Shown piece after piece: positions 9,733-21,816 of a stretch of 33,609 nt of DNA (position 1 is its first letter; each line of letters begins with the position of its first letter). This stretch comes from Candidatus Falkowiibacteriota bacterium (GTDB lineage Bacteria; Patescibacteriota; Patescibacteriia; XYB2-FULL-38-15): NCBI GenBank assembly GCA_016214745.1, contig JACRNW010000010.1:1-33609 (forward strand), read 5' to 3'. The translations under genes and the position numbers were made by a program. Under the pieces are notes generated by a model, which did no database searches, was not told the origin of the DNA, and saw only the letters and a list, made by a program, of their open reading frames with translations.

Positions 9733-10785
9733 ATGAGATTATCTGAATTTGACTTTAATCTTCCGAAAAATCTAATCGCTCAAAAACCGGCTTCGCCGCG
9801 AGATGCCTGCCGGCTTATGGTTTTAGATCGTGAAAAAGGATCTATTAATCATGATCGTTTTTATAACCTTGGCGAATATCTACGGCCCGGCGATGTTTTG
9901 GTTTTAAATAATTCAAAAGTTTTGCCGGCAAGATTGATGGGGAAAAAAGAAACCGGCGGCAAGGTTGAAATTTTACTTTTAAAACAAATTTCTCCGGCGT
10001 CGTGGGAATGTCTTGTTGGTTCTGTGCCGGTCGCGAAGCAAGTGGGCTTGAAAATAAAGTTTGGCGGGAAATTAGTTGGCGAGATTACAAAAAGAGCAGG
10101 GGATACGGCGATTATAAAATTTAATTTGAGCGGCACGAAATTAATGGAACAAATTTTAAAAATCGGTCAGCCCCCGACTCCGCCCTATATTAAACGATTG
10201 GCAAAAGGCGCGGAATACCAAACCGTGTTTGCGGAAAAATTGGGATCAGTCGCCGCGCCAACCGCCGGGATGCATTTTACAAAAAAGTTATTGGCGAAAT
10301 TAAAAAAGATGGGCGTGCAGATTGAATATATTACGCTCCATGTCGGTCTTGGCACTTTTCAGCCGGTAAAAGAAAATGATATTACCAAACATAAAATCCA
10401 CAGCGAATATTTTGAACTGGATAAAAAAACCGCCGAGCGGTTGAACGTAGCAAAACGGGATGACAGAAGAATTATTGCCTGCGGGACAACCACGGTGCGG
10501 GTTTTGGAACATTGCGCCCGTCAAGAAGGAAAATTGCAAGCTCAAAAAGGTTACACAAATATTTTCATTTACCCCCACACCAAAATTTTTGGTGTGGGGG
10601 TGTATCCCGGCTATAAATTCAAATTTATTGACGCTCTGCTCACAAATTTTCACGTGCCGAGATCAACTTTGATTATGCTCGTCGCGGCTTTCGCCGGGAA
10701 AAAATTTGTTGATAAGGCTTATCAAATTGCGATAAAAAAGCGTTATCGGTTTTATTCGTTTGGAGATTCAATGTTAATAGTTTGA
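9733..10785 (+). CDS. queA: S-adenosylmethionine:tRNA ribosyltransferase-isomerase
   Basis: A 350-residue enzyme that moves the ribosyl part of SAM onto preQ1 at tRNA position 34, making epoxyqueuosine. Family signatures are LSEFDFNLPKNLIAQKPASPRDACRLMVL at the N-terminus, GKVEILLLK, APTAGMHFT, LHVGLGTFQPV and the C-terminal NFHVPRSTLIMLVAAFAG and YSFGDSMLIV. The usual NIFIYPGYKF block is interrupted by 11 extra residues (282-292, HTKIFGVGVYP) encoded by a palindromic element; the frame is kept. No SD is visible before the ATG. A second, diverged copy of its 3' end follows the stop. Confidence 0.93.
   Translation: MRLSEFDFNLPKNLIAQKPASPRDACRLMVLDREKGSINHDRFYNLGEYLRPGDVLVLNNSKVLPARLMGKKETGGKVEILLLKQISPASWECLVGSVPVAKQVGLKIKFGGKLVGEITKRAGDTAIIKFNLSGTKLMEQILKIGQPPTPPYIKRLAKGAEYQTVFAEKLGSVAAPTAGMHFTKKLLAKLKKMGVQIEYITLHVGLGTFQPVKENDITKHKIHSEYFELDKKTAERLNVAKRDDRRIIACGTTTVRVLEHCARQEGKLQAQKGYTNIFIYPHTKIFGVGVYPGYKFKFIDALLTNFHVPRSTLIMLVAAFAGKKFVDKAYQIAIKKRYRFYSFGDSMLIV
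10571..10601. repeat. Palindromic element family 1, copy inside queA
   Basis: Perfect 15-bp arms ACCCCCACACCAAAA / TTTTGGTGTGGGGGT around a single T. The insertion is 33 nt long, in frame, and flanked by TAC/TAT (part of the Tyr-Pro codons), suggesting a short target duplication. Confidence 0.75.
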
Positions 10786-10872
10786 TTTTTAAAAAAATAT
10801 AGATTTTTACCCCCACACCAATGCATTGGTGTGGGGGTGTACTCTTTCGGCGACGCGATGTTTATTGTTTAG
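10786..10872 (+). pseudogene. Duplicated queA 3' end carrying a palindromic element
   Basis: Directly after the queA stop, in the same frame, the DNA reads FLKKYRF, then 11 residues encoded by a second palindromic element (LPPHQCIGVGV), then YSFGDAMFIV and a stop. Without the 11 residues this is KKYRFYSFGDAMFIV, matching the real queA C-terminus KKRYRFYSFGDSMLIV. It is a remnant of a second, diverged copy of the gene end. It has no start and is separated from queA by one TGA. Confidence 0.7.
10809..10838. repeat. Palindromic element family 1, copy in the queA remnant
   Basis: A perfect 30-bp palindrome with arms ACCCCCACACCAATG / CATTGGTGTGGGGGT. Together with the flanking bases it makes a 33-nt in-frame insertion in the duplicated queA end, the same length and outer sequence as the copy in queA. 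Confidence 0.75.
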
Positions 10873-10877
10873 AATTT

Positions 10878-13005: not shown

Positions 13006-14135
13006 AAAAATTATTGATTGCGACAATTGAGTTTCCGCCGCAGAAAGGCGGAATCGCAAATTATTTGGCCGGACTTGCCGGTGCGTTGCCGGTTGATAAG
13101 GTTGTAGTTTTGTGTCCGAAAAATCCCTCTCCATCTCTCCCTTTCAAAAAGGGAGAGAGTTATAAAGTGTACAGAAAAAATTTAATAAGCCGGATGCTTT
13201 TTATTTGGCCAAGGTGGCTGCCGATGGTTTGGCATTTATGGCGAACGGCACGACGGGAAAAAGTTGAAGCGATTTTAGTTGGTCAAGTTTTGCCGGTTGG
13301 GACTGCGGCTATGATTTTAAATAAATTTTTACGTTTGCCATATTTTGTTTCATGCCACGGCATGGATATTTTGACTGCCGCCGGAGATCCGCGCAAGAAA
13401 AAGTTATTGAACAAAATTTTAGAACAGGCGGCTCACGTCGTGGCCAATAGTGAATTTACAAAAAATGAACTTTTAAAATTAGCCGTTCCGGAAAATAAAA
13501 TTGCGGTTGTATACCCATACCCAAATGAAGTATCGGGAATCGCGCTAGAAAAAATTTTGGAAATAAAAAATCGGCTGGGACTAGCCGATAAAAAAATTAT
13601 TTTAACTGTGAGTAGGTTAATGGAACGCAAGGGTCACGATAAAGTGATTGAGGCGATGCCAAAAATTTTGGAAAAAGTTCCAAACGCGATTTATGTTATT
13701 GTGGGCGGTGGGCCAGAAAAAGAAAAGTTGCAAGTTTTAAGTTCTAAATTACAAGTGGAAAATAATATCTTATTTACTGGAGAAATTTCTGAAGAAAAAA
13801 AGACGGCTTTTTATCAATTGTGCGATGTGTTTGTAATGACGCCGCGGCAGATTGGGCCGGACGTGGAAGGATTTGGGACGGTTTATCTTGAAGCAAATCA
13901 ATATGGCAAACCAGTCGTAGCTGGGCGAAGTGGCGGCGTGGCGGAAGCAGTGATTGACGGAGTAACGGGACTGATCGTAGATCCGGAAGATGTAAATCAG
14001 ATTACTGAGACGGTGATAAAAATATTATCCGATGAGAGTTTGGCGAAAAAAATGGGCGAGCAGGGGAGAGAGAGAGTGGAAAAAGAATTTAGGTGGGAAG
14101 TCCGGGTGGAAAAGTTAAAAAAGATTTTAAATTGA
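13002..14135 (+). CDS. Family 4 glycosyltransferase (GT-B, group 1)
   Basis: A 377-residue GT-B enzyme. The N-terminal Rossmann domain begins KKLLIATIEFPPQKGGIANYL; the C-terminal donor domain has LTVSRLMERKGHDKVIEAMP and EGFGTVYLEANQYGKPVVAG, the latter holding the E-x7-E motif that binds the nucleotide sugar. It starts within the flippase stop (ATGA). Residues about 41-54 (NPSPSLPFKKGESY) are encoded by a palindromic insertion of family 2. The -35 of the next cassette overlaps its stop codon. Acceptor and donor are unknown; a surface or lipid glycan is inferred. Confidence 0.87.
   Translation: MKKLLIATIEFPPQKGGIANYLAGLAGALPVDKVVVLCPKNPSPSLPFKKGESYKVYRKNLISRMLFIWPRWLPMVWHLWRTARREKVEAILVGQVLPVGTAAMILNKFLRLPYFVSCHGMDILTAAGDPRKKKLLNKILEQAAHVVANSEFTKNELLKLAVPENKIAVVYPYPNEVSGIALEKILEIKNRLGLADKKIILTVSRLMERKGHDKVIEAMPKILEKVPNAIYVIVGGGPEKEKLQVLSSKLQVENNILFTGEISEEKKTAFYQLCDVFVMTPRQIGPDVEGFGTVYLEANQYGKPVVAGRSGGVAEAVIDGVTGLIVDPEDVNQITETVIKILSDESLAKKMGEQGRERVEKEFRWEVRVEKLKKILN
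13123..13162. repeat. Palindromic element family 2, copy inside the glycosyltransferase gene
   Basis: CTCTCCCTTT (13135-13144), loop CAA, AAAGGGAGAG (13148-13157), preceded by AATCCCTCTCC. It adds roughly 14 codons in frame and shares its core and preceding bases with the copy in uvrD at 19969-20015. Confidence 0.65.
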
Positions 14136-18756: not shown

Positions 18757-21700
18757 ATGGTCGATTTATTAAAAGATTTGAACCAAGCCCAGAAGGAGGC
18801 CGTGTCTCATGAAGACGGGCCGTTGCTTATTGTTGCCGGCGCGGGGACGGGAAAGACAACAGTCATCACGCGGCGGCTGGCTTTTTTGATTTTGGAAAAG
18901 AAAATAAATCCCCACACCTTCCCGTCAGATATTCAATCTCAAGATAAGGATATTTTATCTCCGCACCCCAGCCGTCTCAAGGAGTCGGGACAGGGTATTC
19001 GAGAAGGTGTGGGGATAAAGCCGGACGAAATACTGGCCTTAACTTTTACGGAAAAAGCGGCCGGGGAAATGGAAGAGCGGGCGGACCAGATTTTGCCTTA
19101 CGGTTATGTTGACCTTTGGATTTCCACCTTTCATTCTTTTTGCGAGCGAATTTTAAAAGAACACGCCATTGATATCGGCCTACCGGGAGATTTTAAATTA
19201 TTAAATCAAACCGAGCAGTGGCTTTTAATGCGGCAAAATTTGGAGCGTTTTGATTTGGATTATTATCGGCCGCTCGGCAATCCGACAAAATTTATTCATT
19301 CACTTTTAAAACATTTCAGCCGGGCGAAGGATGAAGAAATTTGGCCGGAAAATTATTTGGATTACGCAGAAAATTTAAAATTAAACAAAGACAGCGCCAT
19401 TGCCGAAGACAAAGATCGTTTGCTTGAAGTAGCGAGCGCGTATCACGCTTATCAACAATTGCTTTTGGAAAATAACGCTCTGGATTTTGGCGATTTGATA
19501 AATTATACCTTAAAACTTTTTCGTACCCGGCCGGCGATTTTAGAAAAATACCGGCAAAAGTTTAAGTATATTTTGGTTGACGAATTTCAGGACACAAATT
19601 GGGCGCAGTACGAATTGATAAAAATGATCGCTTCGCCCAAAAATAATTTAACGGTCGTTGGCGATGATGACCAATCAATTTATAAATTCCGCGGCGCCTC
19701 AATTTCAAACATCATGCAGTTTAAAAATGATTTTCCCTATGCCCGAGAAATCATTATCACCGACAATTATCGCACGAAGCAAAACATTTTGGATTTAGCG
19801 TATAAATTTATAAAACAAAATGATCCGAATCGTTTGGAAGCGAAATTAGGGATTGTAAAAAAATTAGCGGCGCAGCGCGAAGGCGAAGGAATTATTGAAC
19901 ACCTGCACTACAAAACTGCCGATCAAGAAGCGCGGGCTGTCGCTGAAAAGATTTTGGAGTTGAAAAAAATCCCTCGGCCTTCGGCCACTCCCTTTGAAAA
20001 AGGGAGAGAAGAAATCGGCTACCAGGATTTTGCTATTTTGGTCCGCGCCAACAATCAGGCGGAAATGTTTATGGGAGTGTTTGACCAATATGGAATTCCA
20101 TATCATTTTTTGGCCTCGGCCGGACTTTATTCCAAACCGGTTATTTTGGATATTATCGCTTATTTAAAAACTTTGGATAATTACCACGAGTCCACCGCGC
20201 TTTACCGAGTTTTGAATATGCCGTTTGTTGGTTTGGCCTACGACGATCTTATCGCCCTAAATTTCGCCGTTCGGAGGAAAAATTGGTCGCTTTATGAGGC
20301 GATGAAACATGCCGCCGCGGTTGGCGTTTCTCCCGATGGTTTGCGAAAGATCAATAAGGTTTTAGGATTTATAGAAAAACACACGGCTATTGCCCGCGAG
20401 CGGGGAATAAGCAAGGTTGTTTTTAAATTTTTGGAAGATTTTAGTTATTTGGCAAATTTAACAAAACGTGCCGAGAAAGGCGATCTGCGCGCCGCGGAAG
20501 AGATAAGTTACGTCAATCAATTTTTGAAAAAAATAGAAGGGTTTGAAAGAGCGAATCCGGATAAGTCGGTCAAAAATTTTATGATCGGACTGGAGATGGC
20601 CTTGGAGTCGGGTGAGGAAGGATCGCTTGCCGGAAATTTTGACGAAGGTCCGGACACAGTAAAAATTTTAACGGTACATGGCGCCAAAGGTTTGGAGTTT
20701 AAATATGTTTTTATCGTGAATTTAGTTGATCTGCGTTTTCCGTCCACGGACAGAAAAGAACCGATTGAAATGCCGACCGCTTTGGTTAAAGAGATTTTGC
20801 CCGAAGGCGACATTCATCTTGAAGAAGAGCGCCGGCTTTTTTACGTGGCTATGACGCGGGCGCGCGACGGAGTTTTTTTAACTTCAGCGAGCGATTACGG
20901 CGGTCAGCGTAAGAAAAAACTTTCGCGGTTTTTAGTGGAACTTGGTTTTGTGGAAGAGGAGTCAAAAGCGCCGACCGGCCAGGTTTATTTTGACGAAGAA
21001 AAAATGGTCTCGGAAAGCGGACGAGCGACAAAAAAATATTGGTTGCCGAGTAAATTCAGTTTTACTCAGCTCAAGGCATTTGAAACTTGTCCTTTGCAAT
21101 ATAAATTTGCCCACGTTTTAGTTGTCCCAACGCAGGGAAAATTTACTTTCAGTTTTGGAAAAACCATGCACAGCACTTTGCAGAAATTTTTTGATCAAAT
21201 ATCAAAAAAAGAAAATCATAAACAAACTGATCTTTTCGGCGGGAAGGGGAGCGGAGAAGCGGCGGCGCCGACAGAGGATGAACTTTTAAAAATTTACGAA
21301 GAGACTTGGATTAATGATTGGTATGACAGTAAAAGTCACGAAGACGAATATCGAAAACTTGGCCGCAATAAATTTCGGGATTTTTATAAATTACATGAAG
21401 GTAAATGGCCGAAAACAAAATATTTAGAAAAGGGTTTTAATTTGCGCGTGGGCGAATGCACGATGCGCGGCGTGATTGACCGAGTGGACGAAGTCCCGGG
21501 CGGAATTGAAATTGTTGATTACAAAACCGGCAGCGTGCCCAAAGATGAAAAATATTTGGATAAAGACCAGCTTTTAATTTATCAAGCCGCGGCTCGCGAA
21601 GTGCTCGGCGAAAATCCGGTTTTATTGAGTTATTATTATTTGGACGAAAATAAAAAAATGTCATTTTTAGGAACTGACGAGGAGATCGGGGAAATTAAAG

Positions 21701-21816
21701 AAAAAATTGCCGCGACAATTCGGGAAATTAAAAAAAGCGAATTTCCTCCGAAGCCGAGTTTGTTTACTTGTAAAAATTGTGATTTTAAAGATATTTGCGA
21801 ACATCGCGTCTTATGA
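18757..21816 (+). CDS. UvrD/PcrA-type superfamily-1 helicase fused to a RecB-family nuclease
   Basis: A 1019-residue enzyme. Walker A is GAGTGKT (28-34); motif II VDEFQDTNW, motif III-like VVGDDDQSIYKFRGA and the late VAMTRARDG motif are all present, so ATPase and helicase activity are expected. The C-terminal 250 residues are a PD-(D/E)xK nuclease with Asp908, Asp921 and Lys923 (VDYKTG), and Cys778, Cys1005, Cys1008, Cys1014 that match the Fe-S staple of AddB-type nucleases. The role is likely double-strand break end processing and repair. Two in-frame palindromic insertions (residues about 51-87 and 404-420) lie outside the motifs. Confidence 0.88.
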   Translation: MVDLLKDLNQAQKEAVSHEDGPLLIVAGAGTGKTTVITRRLAFLILEKKINPHTFPSDIQSQDKDILSPHPSRLKESGQGIREGVGIKPDEILALTFTEKAAGEMEERADQILPYGYVDLWISTFHSFCERILKEHAIDIGLPGDFKLLNQTEQWLLMRQNLERFDLDYYRPLGNPTKFIHSLLKHFSRAKDEEIWPENYLDYAENLKLNKDSAIAEDKDRLLEVASAYHAYQQLLLENNALDFGDLINYTLKLFRTRPAILEKYRQKFKYILVDEFQDTNWAQYELIKMIASPKNNLTVVGDDDQSIYKFRGASISNIMQFKNDFPYAREIIITDNYRTKQNILDLAYKFIKQNDPNRLEAKLGIVKKLAAQREGEGIIEHLHYKTADQEARAVAEKILELKKIPRPSATPFEKGREEIGYQDFAILVRANNQAEMFMGVFDQYGIPYHFLASAGLYSKPVILDIIAYLKTLDNYHESTALYRVLNMPFVGLAYDDLIALNFAVRRKNWSLYEAMKHAAAVGVSPDGLRKINKVLGFIEKHTAIARERGISKVVFKFLEDFSYLANLTKRAEKGDLRAAEEISYVNQFLKKIEGFERANPDKSVKNFMIGLEMALESGEEGSLAGNFDEGPDTVKILTVHGAKGLEFKYVFIVNLVDLRFPSTDRKEPIEMPTALVKEILPEGDIHLEEERRLFYVAMTRARDGVFLTSASDYGGQRKKKLSRFLVELGFVEEESKAPTGQVYFDEEKMVSESGRATKKYWLPSKFSFTQLKAFETCPLQYKFAHVLVVPTQGKFTFSFGKTMHSTLQKFFDQISKKENHKQTDLFGGKGSGEAAAPTEDELLKIYEETWINDWYDSKSHEDEYRKLGRNKFRDFYKLHEGKWPKTKYLEKGFNLRVGECTMRGVIDRVDEVPGGIEIVDYKTGSVPKDEKYLDKDQLLIYQAAAREVLGENPVLLSYYYLDENKKMSFLGTDEEIGEIKEKIAATIREIKKSEFPPKPSLFTCKNCDFKDICEHRVL
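18904..19019. repeat. Palindromic element family 1, long copy inside uvrD
   Basis: 14-bp perfect arms ATCCCCACACCTTC (18908-18921) and GAAGGTGTGGGGAT (19003-19016), flanked by direct repeats ATAAA (18904-18908 and 19015-19019). The insertion length is 111 nt, or 37 codons, so the helicase frame is kept. Confidence 0.75.
19969..20015. repeat. Palindromic element family 2, copy inside uvrD
   Basis: CTCCCTTT (19988-19995), loop GAA, AAAGGGAG (19999-20006), preceded by AATCCCTCGGCC and a small GGCC-TTC-GGCC hairpin. It encodes about IPRPSATPFEKGREEIG, extra to the normal helicase sequence, in frame. Confidence 0.65.

Follow-up and report, generated by a model that had tools for sequence, protein, structure and literature searches.

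The 37 residues that interrupt a UvrD-type helicase in a Candidatus Falkowiibacteriota bacterium are best explained as a MITE-like, non-autonomous copy from a family of palindromic transposable elements that is common in Patescibacteria and is moved, as we infer, by a GIY-YIG nuclease. We put the probability of this reading at about 0.7. At the level of sequence comparison, we can demonstrate the insertion, its 4-bp duplication, the structured ends, the existence of coding and non-coding members, and the retention of copies in frame.

The insertion in uvrD

The host gene encodes a UvrD/PcrA-type helicase in which Pfam recognizes UvrD N- and C-terminal domains and a PD-(D/E)XK nuclease domain. 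The relevant features, with positions in the window (the whole stretch of 33,609 nucleotides that was analysed), are:

18757..21816, + strand: uvrD-type helicase gene, 1019 aa (open reading frame and translation; Pfam PF00580, PF13361, PF12705)
18905..18908, + strand: left target duplication TAAA, 4 bp (sequence; single copy in the same-genus genome G001; family-wide 4-bp peak)
18907..19017, + strand: 37 added codons, residues 51-87, NPHTFPSDIQSQDKDILSPHPSRLKESGQGIREGVGI (translation and alignment with G001)
18908..18924, + strand: left arm, terminal inverted repeat (inverted-repeat detection)
18909..19015, no strand assigned: palindromic element of 107 nt, T CCCCACACC ... GGTGTGGGG A (inverted repeat; absent in relatives; homologues in other genomes)
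19000..19016, + strand: right arm, terminal inverted repeat (inverted-repeat detection)
19016..19019, + strand: right target duplication TAAA, 4 bp (sequence; single copy in G001; family-wide 4-bp peak)

The two arms, with ATCCCCACACCTTC at 18908-18921 and GAAGGTGTGGGGAT at 19003-19016, are 17 nt long each, 94% complementary and separated by 75 nt. The first-pass annotation had described a 111-nt element bordered by ATAAA repeats. An insertion of 111 nt is indeed present, but the element proper measures 107 nt (18909-19015) and reaches 111 nt, or 37 codons between Walker A and motif Ia, only together with one copy of the repeat. Direct repeats are likewise present, but not of 5 bp: they are best read as TAAA, since the extra A of the right-hand ATAAA belongs to the palindrome, as its final base, and matches by coincidence. 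The placement of 37 in-frame codons after Walker A was correct, as translation and the G001 alignment put residues 51-87 ahead of motif Ia. An alignment to PcrA (1pjr) locates the insert at residues ~55-56, which we take to be the loop that connects the helix following Walker A with the strand of motif Ia.

The UvrD protein of G001 lacks the 37 residues, its site reading LILEKKI-KPDEILALTFT, and the DNA there contains one ATAAA only. Over the 718-aa stretch compared, the two proteins are 92% identical, and the 37-aa insert is the sole run of at least five residues missing from G001. In the other relatives inspected, the helicase matches on both sides of the insert, with nothing similar between. 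The absence of the 37 residues from G001 and these further relatives therefore establishes that they were inserted. The proposal of a mobile insertion would have been undermined had UvrD alignments found the residues in the closest relatives with diverged DNA. They are absent there, and the empty site, the 4-bp duplication and dispersed homologues (see below) all agree with it.

The same gene contains a second, unrelated palindromic insert (window 19968-20015, residues about 404-415, ...CTCCCTTTGAAAAAGGGAGAGA...), of a type that also occurs in another gene at 13137-13158. The loop at residue ~404 carries a different insert in G001 and none in several other relatives.

Elements with the same ends

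The sequence CCCCACACC is common to the uvrD arms and to two short palindromes at queA, found at 10573-10599 and 10811-10836 and listed here with one further base on either side:

10572..10600, no strand assigned: short palindrome inside queA, in frame, flanks TTTA/TGTA (inverted repeat, same family)
10810..10837, no strand assigned: short palindrome just after queA, flanks TTTA/TGTA (inverted repeat, same family)

The window contains 8 copies of CCCCACACC when up to one mismatch is allowed; 2.6 are expected, and none of 100 shuffles reaches 8. In the whole 923-kb genome the reversed control is found 5 times and CCCCACACC 35 times, most of the latter in pairs that face each other at distances of 10-100 nt. 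Here the same ends are found on palindromes of 28-30 nt, on longer ones of ~70-107 nt and on coding versions, and the family as a whole comprises short elements of ~28 nt, long elements of ~70-113 nt and the coding versions. Searches of 285 genomes of the class found CCCCACACC-N0-30-GGTGTGGGG in 28 and the N76-106 form of the pair in 18, whereas the reversed control gave none; elements with these ends also occur in other genera of the class. No second copy of the uvrD element's interior exists in the same genome.

Past the nine fixed bases, the arms of long elements differ in sequence yet remain paired: position 10 pairs in 41 of 44 (20 expected), AT and TA being about equally common. Six uvrD-like elements from five genera can be aligned over their length, and a covariance model of these six copies has matches in 27 of the 285 genomes; its E-values are rough and some matches rest mainly on the ends. 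Among matches aligned to this model, both partners have changed at 23 of 25 pairs (216 cells; a mean of 74 after shuffling), counted on an alignment fitted to the model and with some elements entering on both strands.

Exact 4-bp repeats flank 23 of 72 elements, against 6.0 expected when partners are shuffled (maximum 13 in 500 shuffles), and none of the 72 has an exact flanking repeat of 5-8 bp. The exact 4-bp repeat is thus retained by only about a third of the elements. The sequences duplicated at long elements are TAAA, TTTA, TTGA, TCAA and CAAG, and the family prefers T..A or C..G.

These results bear out the earlier suggestions that the uvrD insert shares its ends with the queA elements and that short and long versions belong to one mobile family. 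The ends are enriched in window and genome, a genome-wide search recovers them in both sizes throughout, and the short and long forms have their ends, target duplication and covarying stems in common. A lack of direct repeats at other copies, which would have spoken against the proposal, was not found, as these show a sharp 4-bp peak.

In the stretch 10770-10875, past the queA stop, the second short palindrome precedes a diverged copy of the C-terminal part of queA (YSFGDAMFIV*), as if the 3' end of queA had been replaced by an insertion and the old end left behind.

GIY-YIG genes and the candidate enzyme

GIY-YIG nucleases have established roles in homing, repair and restriction, and the domain also occurs in Penelope-type retroelements. 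The genome studied here has about a dozen GIY-YIG matches, among them two ORFs of ~84 aa (contigs C2 and C3) that lie exactly between CCCCCACACCAATT and its complement, with a one-base change in one arm of the C2 element, and that are flanked by the duplications CAGG and CGCG. The coding version consists of one ORF of ~85 aa with a single GIY-YIG nuclease domain. The inverted repeats enclose it tightly: it begins just inside one arm, and its stop codon often falls within the other. We examined 78 homologues from named genomes, nearly all of them Patescibacteria MAGs; inverted repeats flank 54 of them (score at least 13; 2.8% in a null with mispaired flanks), and about a third show no bracketing repeats in this test. 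GIY-YIG elements with CCCC(C)ACAC ends have exact 4-bp repeats in 9 of 28 cases (1.0 expected), and two nuclease-carrying elements, L151 and L302, have exactly the terminal 12-13 bases of the uvrD element. The uvrD element itself has no GIY-YIG remnant or similarity to the nuclease, and its genome has no coding copy with the exact inner arms (CACCTT) of the uvrD-like subfamily. In viral contigs, relatives of the nuclease are rare, with 4 loci.

GIY-YIG elements with perfect inverted repeats are also found in or at genes for RNase P RNA (L035, L146), 16S rRNA (L149, L154, L240, L292) and 23S rRNA (L151, L302, L295); the RNase P gene of L035 holds a second palindrome. Two further GIY-YIG elements of our genome, L038 and L046 (G000:C11:14800, C10:75061), have different common ends, CCCCGTTAGAAGCC.

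We infer that the GIY-YIG protein is the mobilising enzyme and acts in trans on the miniature copies; no transposition has been observed and there is no biochemistry for these proteins. As we envisage it, the protein would recognise the palindromic ends in a folded state, as hairpin or cruciform DNA, and cut a YNNR target with a 4-nt stagger, whereupon the element would join at the staggered cut and gap repair would produce the duplication.

GIY-YIG genes and palindromes could also be separate passengers, the nuclease homing via double-strand breaks and recombination, and the hairpins spreading by recombination or template switching. GIY-YIG genes are, after all, classical homing endonucleases, and several lie in tRNA genes that appear rebuilt, as after recombination. 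We nevertheless consider this unlikely, though not negligible, as the ORF sits tight between the repeats, its stop codon often inside an arm, and as coding and non-coding elements have the same ends and the same 4-bp duplication at many unrelated sites.

The first-pass annotation had called for a transposase that could move the elements. No classical Y1 enzyme tracks them, and what lies between the same ends is the GIY-YIG nuclease. A GIY-YIG homologue is present in 17 of 18 genomes with long elements versus 104 of 267 others (p=2.7e-6), whereas Y1 genes show no association (11 of 18 versus 148 of 267, p=0.81); neither test is corrected for shared ancestry or genome quality. One genome with a long element, G180, has no GIY-YIG homologue at E<=1e-15. 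Y1 (HUH) transposases typically act on hairpin ends, and the genome studied here has two Y1_Tnp genes; these two facts favour REP/MITE-like palindromes moved by an enzyme of the IS200/IS605 or RAYT type. Against this, Y1 genes are no commoner where long elements occur, G001 has a short hairpin of this type without any Y1 gene, and the 4-bp duplication does not fit IS200/IS605 insertion, which makes none. Movement by a Y1 enzyme thus seems distinctly improbable to us.

Reading frames and tRNA genes

Within the uvrD-like subfamily, 17 of 37 examined members lie in frame within long ORFs. Their hosts include UvrD, ribosomal protein S9 (rpsI), RecG (recG), DNA polymerase III alpha (dnaE) and GatB (gatB), as well as a P-type ATPase, FemAB and glycosyltransferases. 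No long ORF reads through the remaining 20, and a search among these for a convincingly frame-broken gene found none. Three out-of-frame candidates with long open frames on both sides were rejected: L188 is located where a gene ends and is followed by a different gene, and L476 and L477 involve no convincing broken gene. The in-frame bias is most simply ascribed to purifying selection after insertion. In our reading, the uvrD copy survived because its 111 nt are a multiple of three, contain no stop in frame and fall in a loop, and we infer that translation would read straight through it.

A strong hairpin and the presence of related elements within essential genes might also suggest that the insert is removed or skipped, either as an intron-like RNA or as a hairpin bypassed by the ribosome, as in the byp elements of yeast mitochondria. 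We regard this as very improbable. The insert keeps the frame open and its length is divisible by three, no examined element sits in a convincingly frame-broken gene, though bypass would tolerate one, and no Rfam family, group I and II introns included, matches the uvrD locus. We dismiss with near certainty the view of the 37 residues as an ordinary loop, whether ancestral or drifting: although UvrD homologues do differ in loop length, as at residue 404, this is refuted by the empty site in G001, at 92% identity over the compared stretch, and by the homologous elements in unrelated genes of other genera, and a 4-bp duplication borders the insert.

Three elements carry an intact tRNA gene:

L024 1470-1640 (G000:C10:20150-20330): tRNA-cargo element, Gly-CCC (C10:20187)
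L022 1480-1640 (G000:C9:34060-34220): tRNA-cargo element, Leu-CAG (C9:34081)
L185 560-760 (G226:C47): tRNA-cargo element, Ala-TGC

Each of them interrupts another tRNA gene that has, by sequence, the same anticodon; for the interrupted outer genes and the Ala cargo, the anticodon was identified by visual inspection. In the Gly case, the syntenic position in G002 is occupied by an intact native tRNA, whose acceptor stem is matched by the two halves that flank the element; the inner copy is a different gene. It is as if the element brought a replacement for the tRNA gene it broke.

A sister subfamily with CCCCTCAC ends is found near the 5' end of tRNA-like sequences (L246, L255, L265, L267, L276, L278, L299). 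Exact 7-bp repeats flank 7 of 11 of its elements (1.1 expected), so that the 5' start of the tRNA appears rebuilt. At L044 1380-1840 (G000:C5:14400-14860), a GIY-YIG gene for which no inverted repeats are obvious has a partial copy of the tRNA-Glu 5' half on one side and a complete tRNA-Glu gene on the other, as if its insertion had rebuilt the tRNA.

Comparison with known systems

With slightly better than even odds, in our estimate, these elements represent a class of minimal bacterial DNA transposon whose sole gene is a one-domain GIY-YIG nuclease on palindromic ends, which makes a 4-bp target duplication, and which spawns miniatures that settle in frame in essential genes and others that carry a replacement tRNA with the anticodon of the tRNA they break. 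The GIY-YIG-bearing family looks like an undescribed kind of bacterial transposon. A search of an open-access library turned up no account of GIY-YIG elements with inverted repeats and miniature copies; this is weak evidence, as most subscription papers and all preprints were outside its scope. If the interpretation is true, GIY-YIG nucleases also drive a minimal transposon in Patescibacteria.

Bacterial MITEs share terminal inverted repeats, target duplications, the lack of an own gene and the existence of gene-carrying relatives. The uvrD element meets these criteria with its 17-nt, 94% complementary arms, whose changes are paired in the family; with TAAA on both sides, single in G001, and the 4-bp family peak; and as a non-coding element with partners of autonomous type, L151 and L302, that have the same terminal 12-13 bases. 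The differences are that the candidate enzyme is a one-domain GIY-YIG nuclease, not a DDE transposase, and that many copies are read in frame. REP/RAYT and IS200/IS605 elements resemble the family in their hairpin ends and short dispersed palindromes, but the uvrD family lacks the Y1 association and has 4-bp duplications, and so meets neither of the criteria for these systems (Y1 association, no target duplication). Nor is the uvrD element (locus L017) a self-splicing intron by the criterion of an Rfam match, of which it has none, or a homing element, as it encodes no nuclease and family copies occupy many unrelated sites.

Fungal mitochondria contain mobile hairpins, such as double-hairpin elements, and nuclease genes that restore the genes in which they settle. 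Both traits recall what we describe here; the differences are the bacterial chromosome, the union of nuclease and ends in one unit, the 4-bp duplications and the many unrelated sites.

In rRNA genes of CPR bacteria, small GIY-YIG ORFs have been found only in insertions that match no group I or II intron, and the authors concluded that these had not spread by homing; no inverted repeats, duplications or miniature copies were reported (PMC11270868). Our GIY-YIG copies in 16S rRNA, 23S rRNA and RNase P RNA genes, in contrast, come with the same kind of ends, and the CPR rRNA puzzle therefore probably has the same answer. The transposon proposed here, if real, would account for these non-intron insertions.

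The Rickettsia palindromic elements (RPE) are palindromes of roughly 100-150 nt spread across a small genome and found in frame in unrelated protein genes (PMC10969869). The elements of the uvrD family are also palindromic, dispersed, in frame in unrelated protein genes and absent from orthologues, as the empty uvrD site and the 17 of 37 in-frame relatives attest. They may thus be said to resemble RPE, a likeness of behaviour for which we claim no homology. They differ in their Patescibacteria host and in the 4-bp duplication, the fixed CCCCACACC ends and the coding partner with the same ends that are visible here. If our reading holds, this would be a second, independent case of selfish DNA putting readable peptides into essential proteins and, since target duplications and a candidate enzyme are visible, one in which the way such protein-inserting palindromes move becomes testable.
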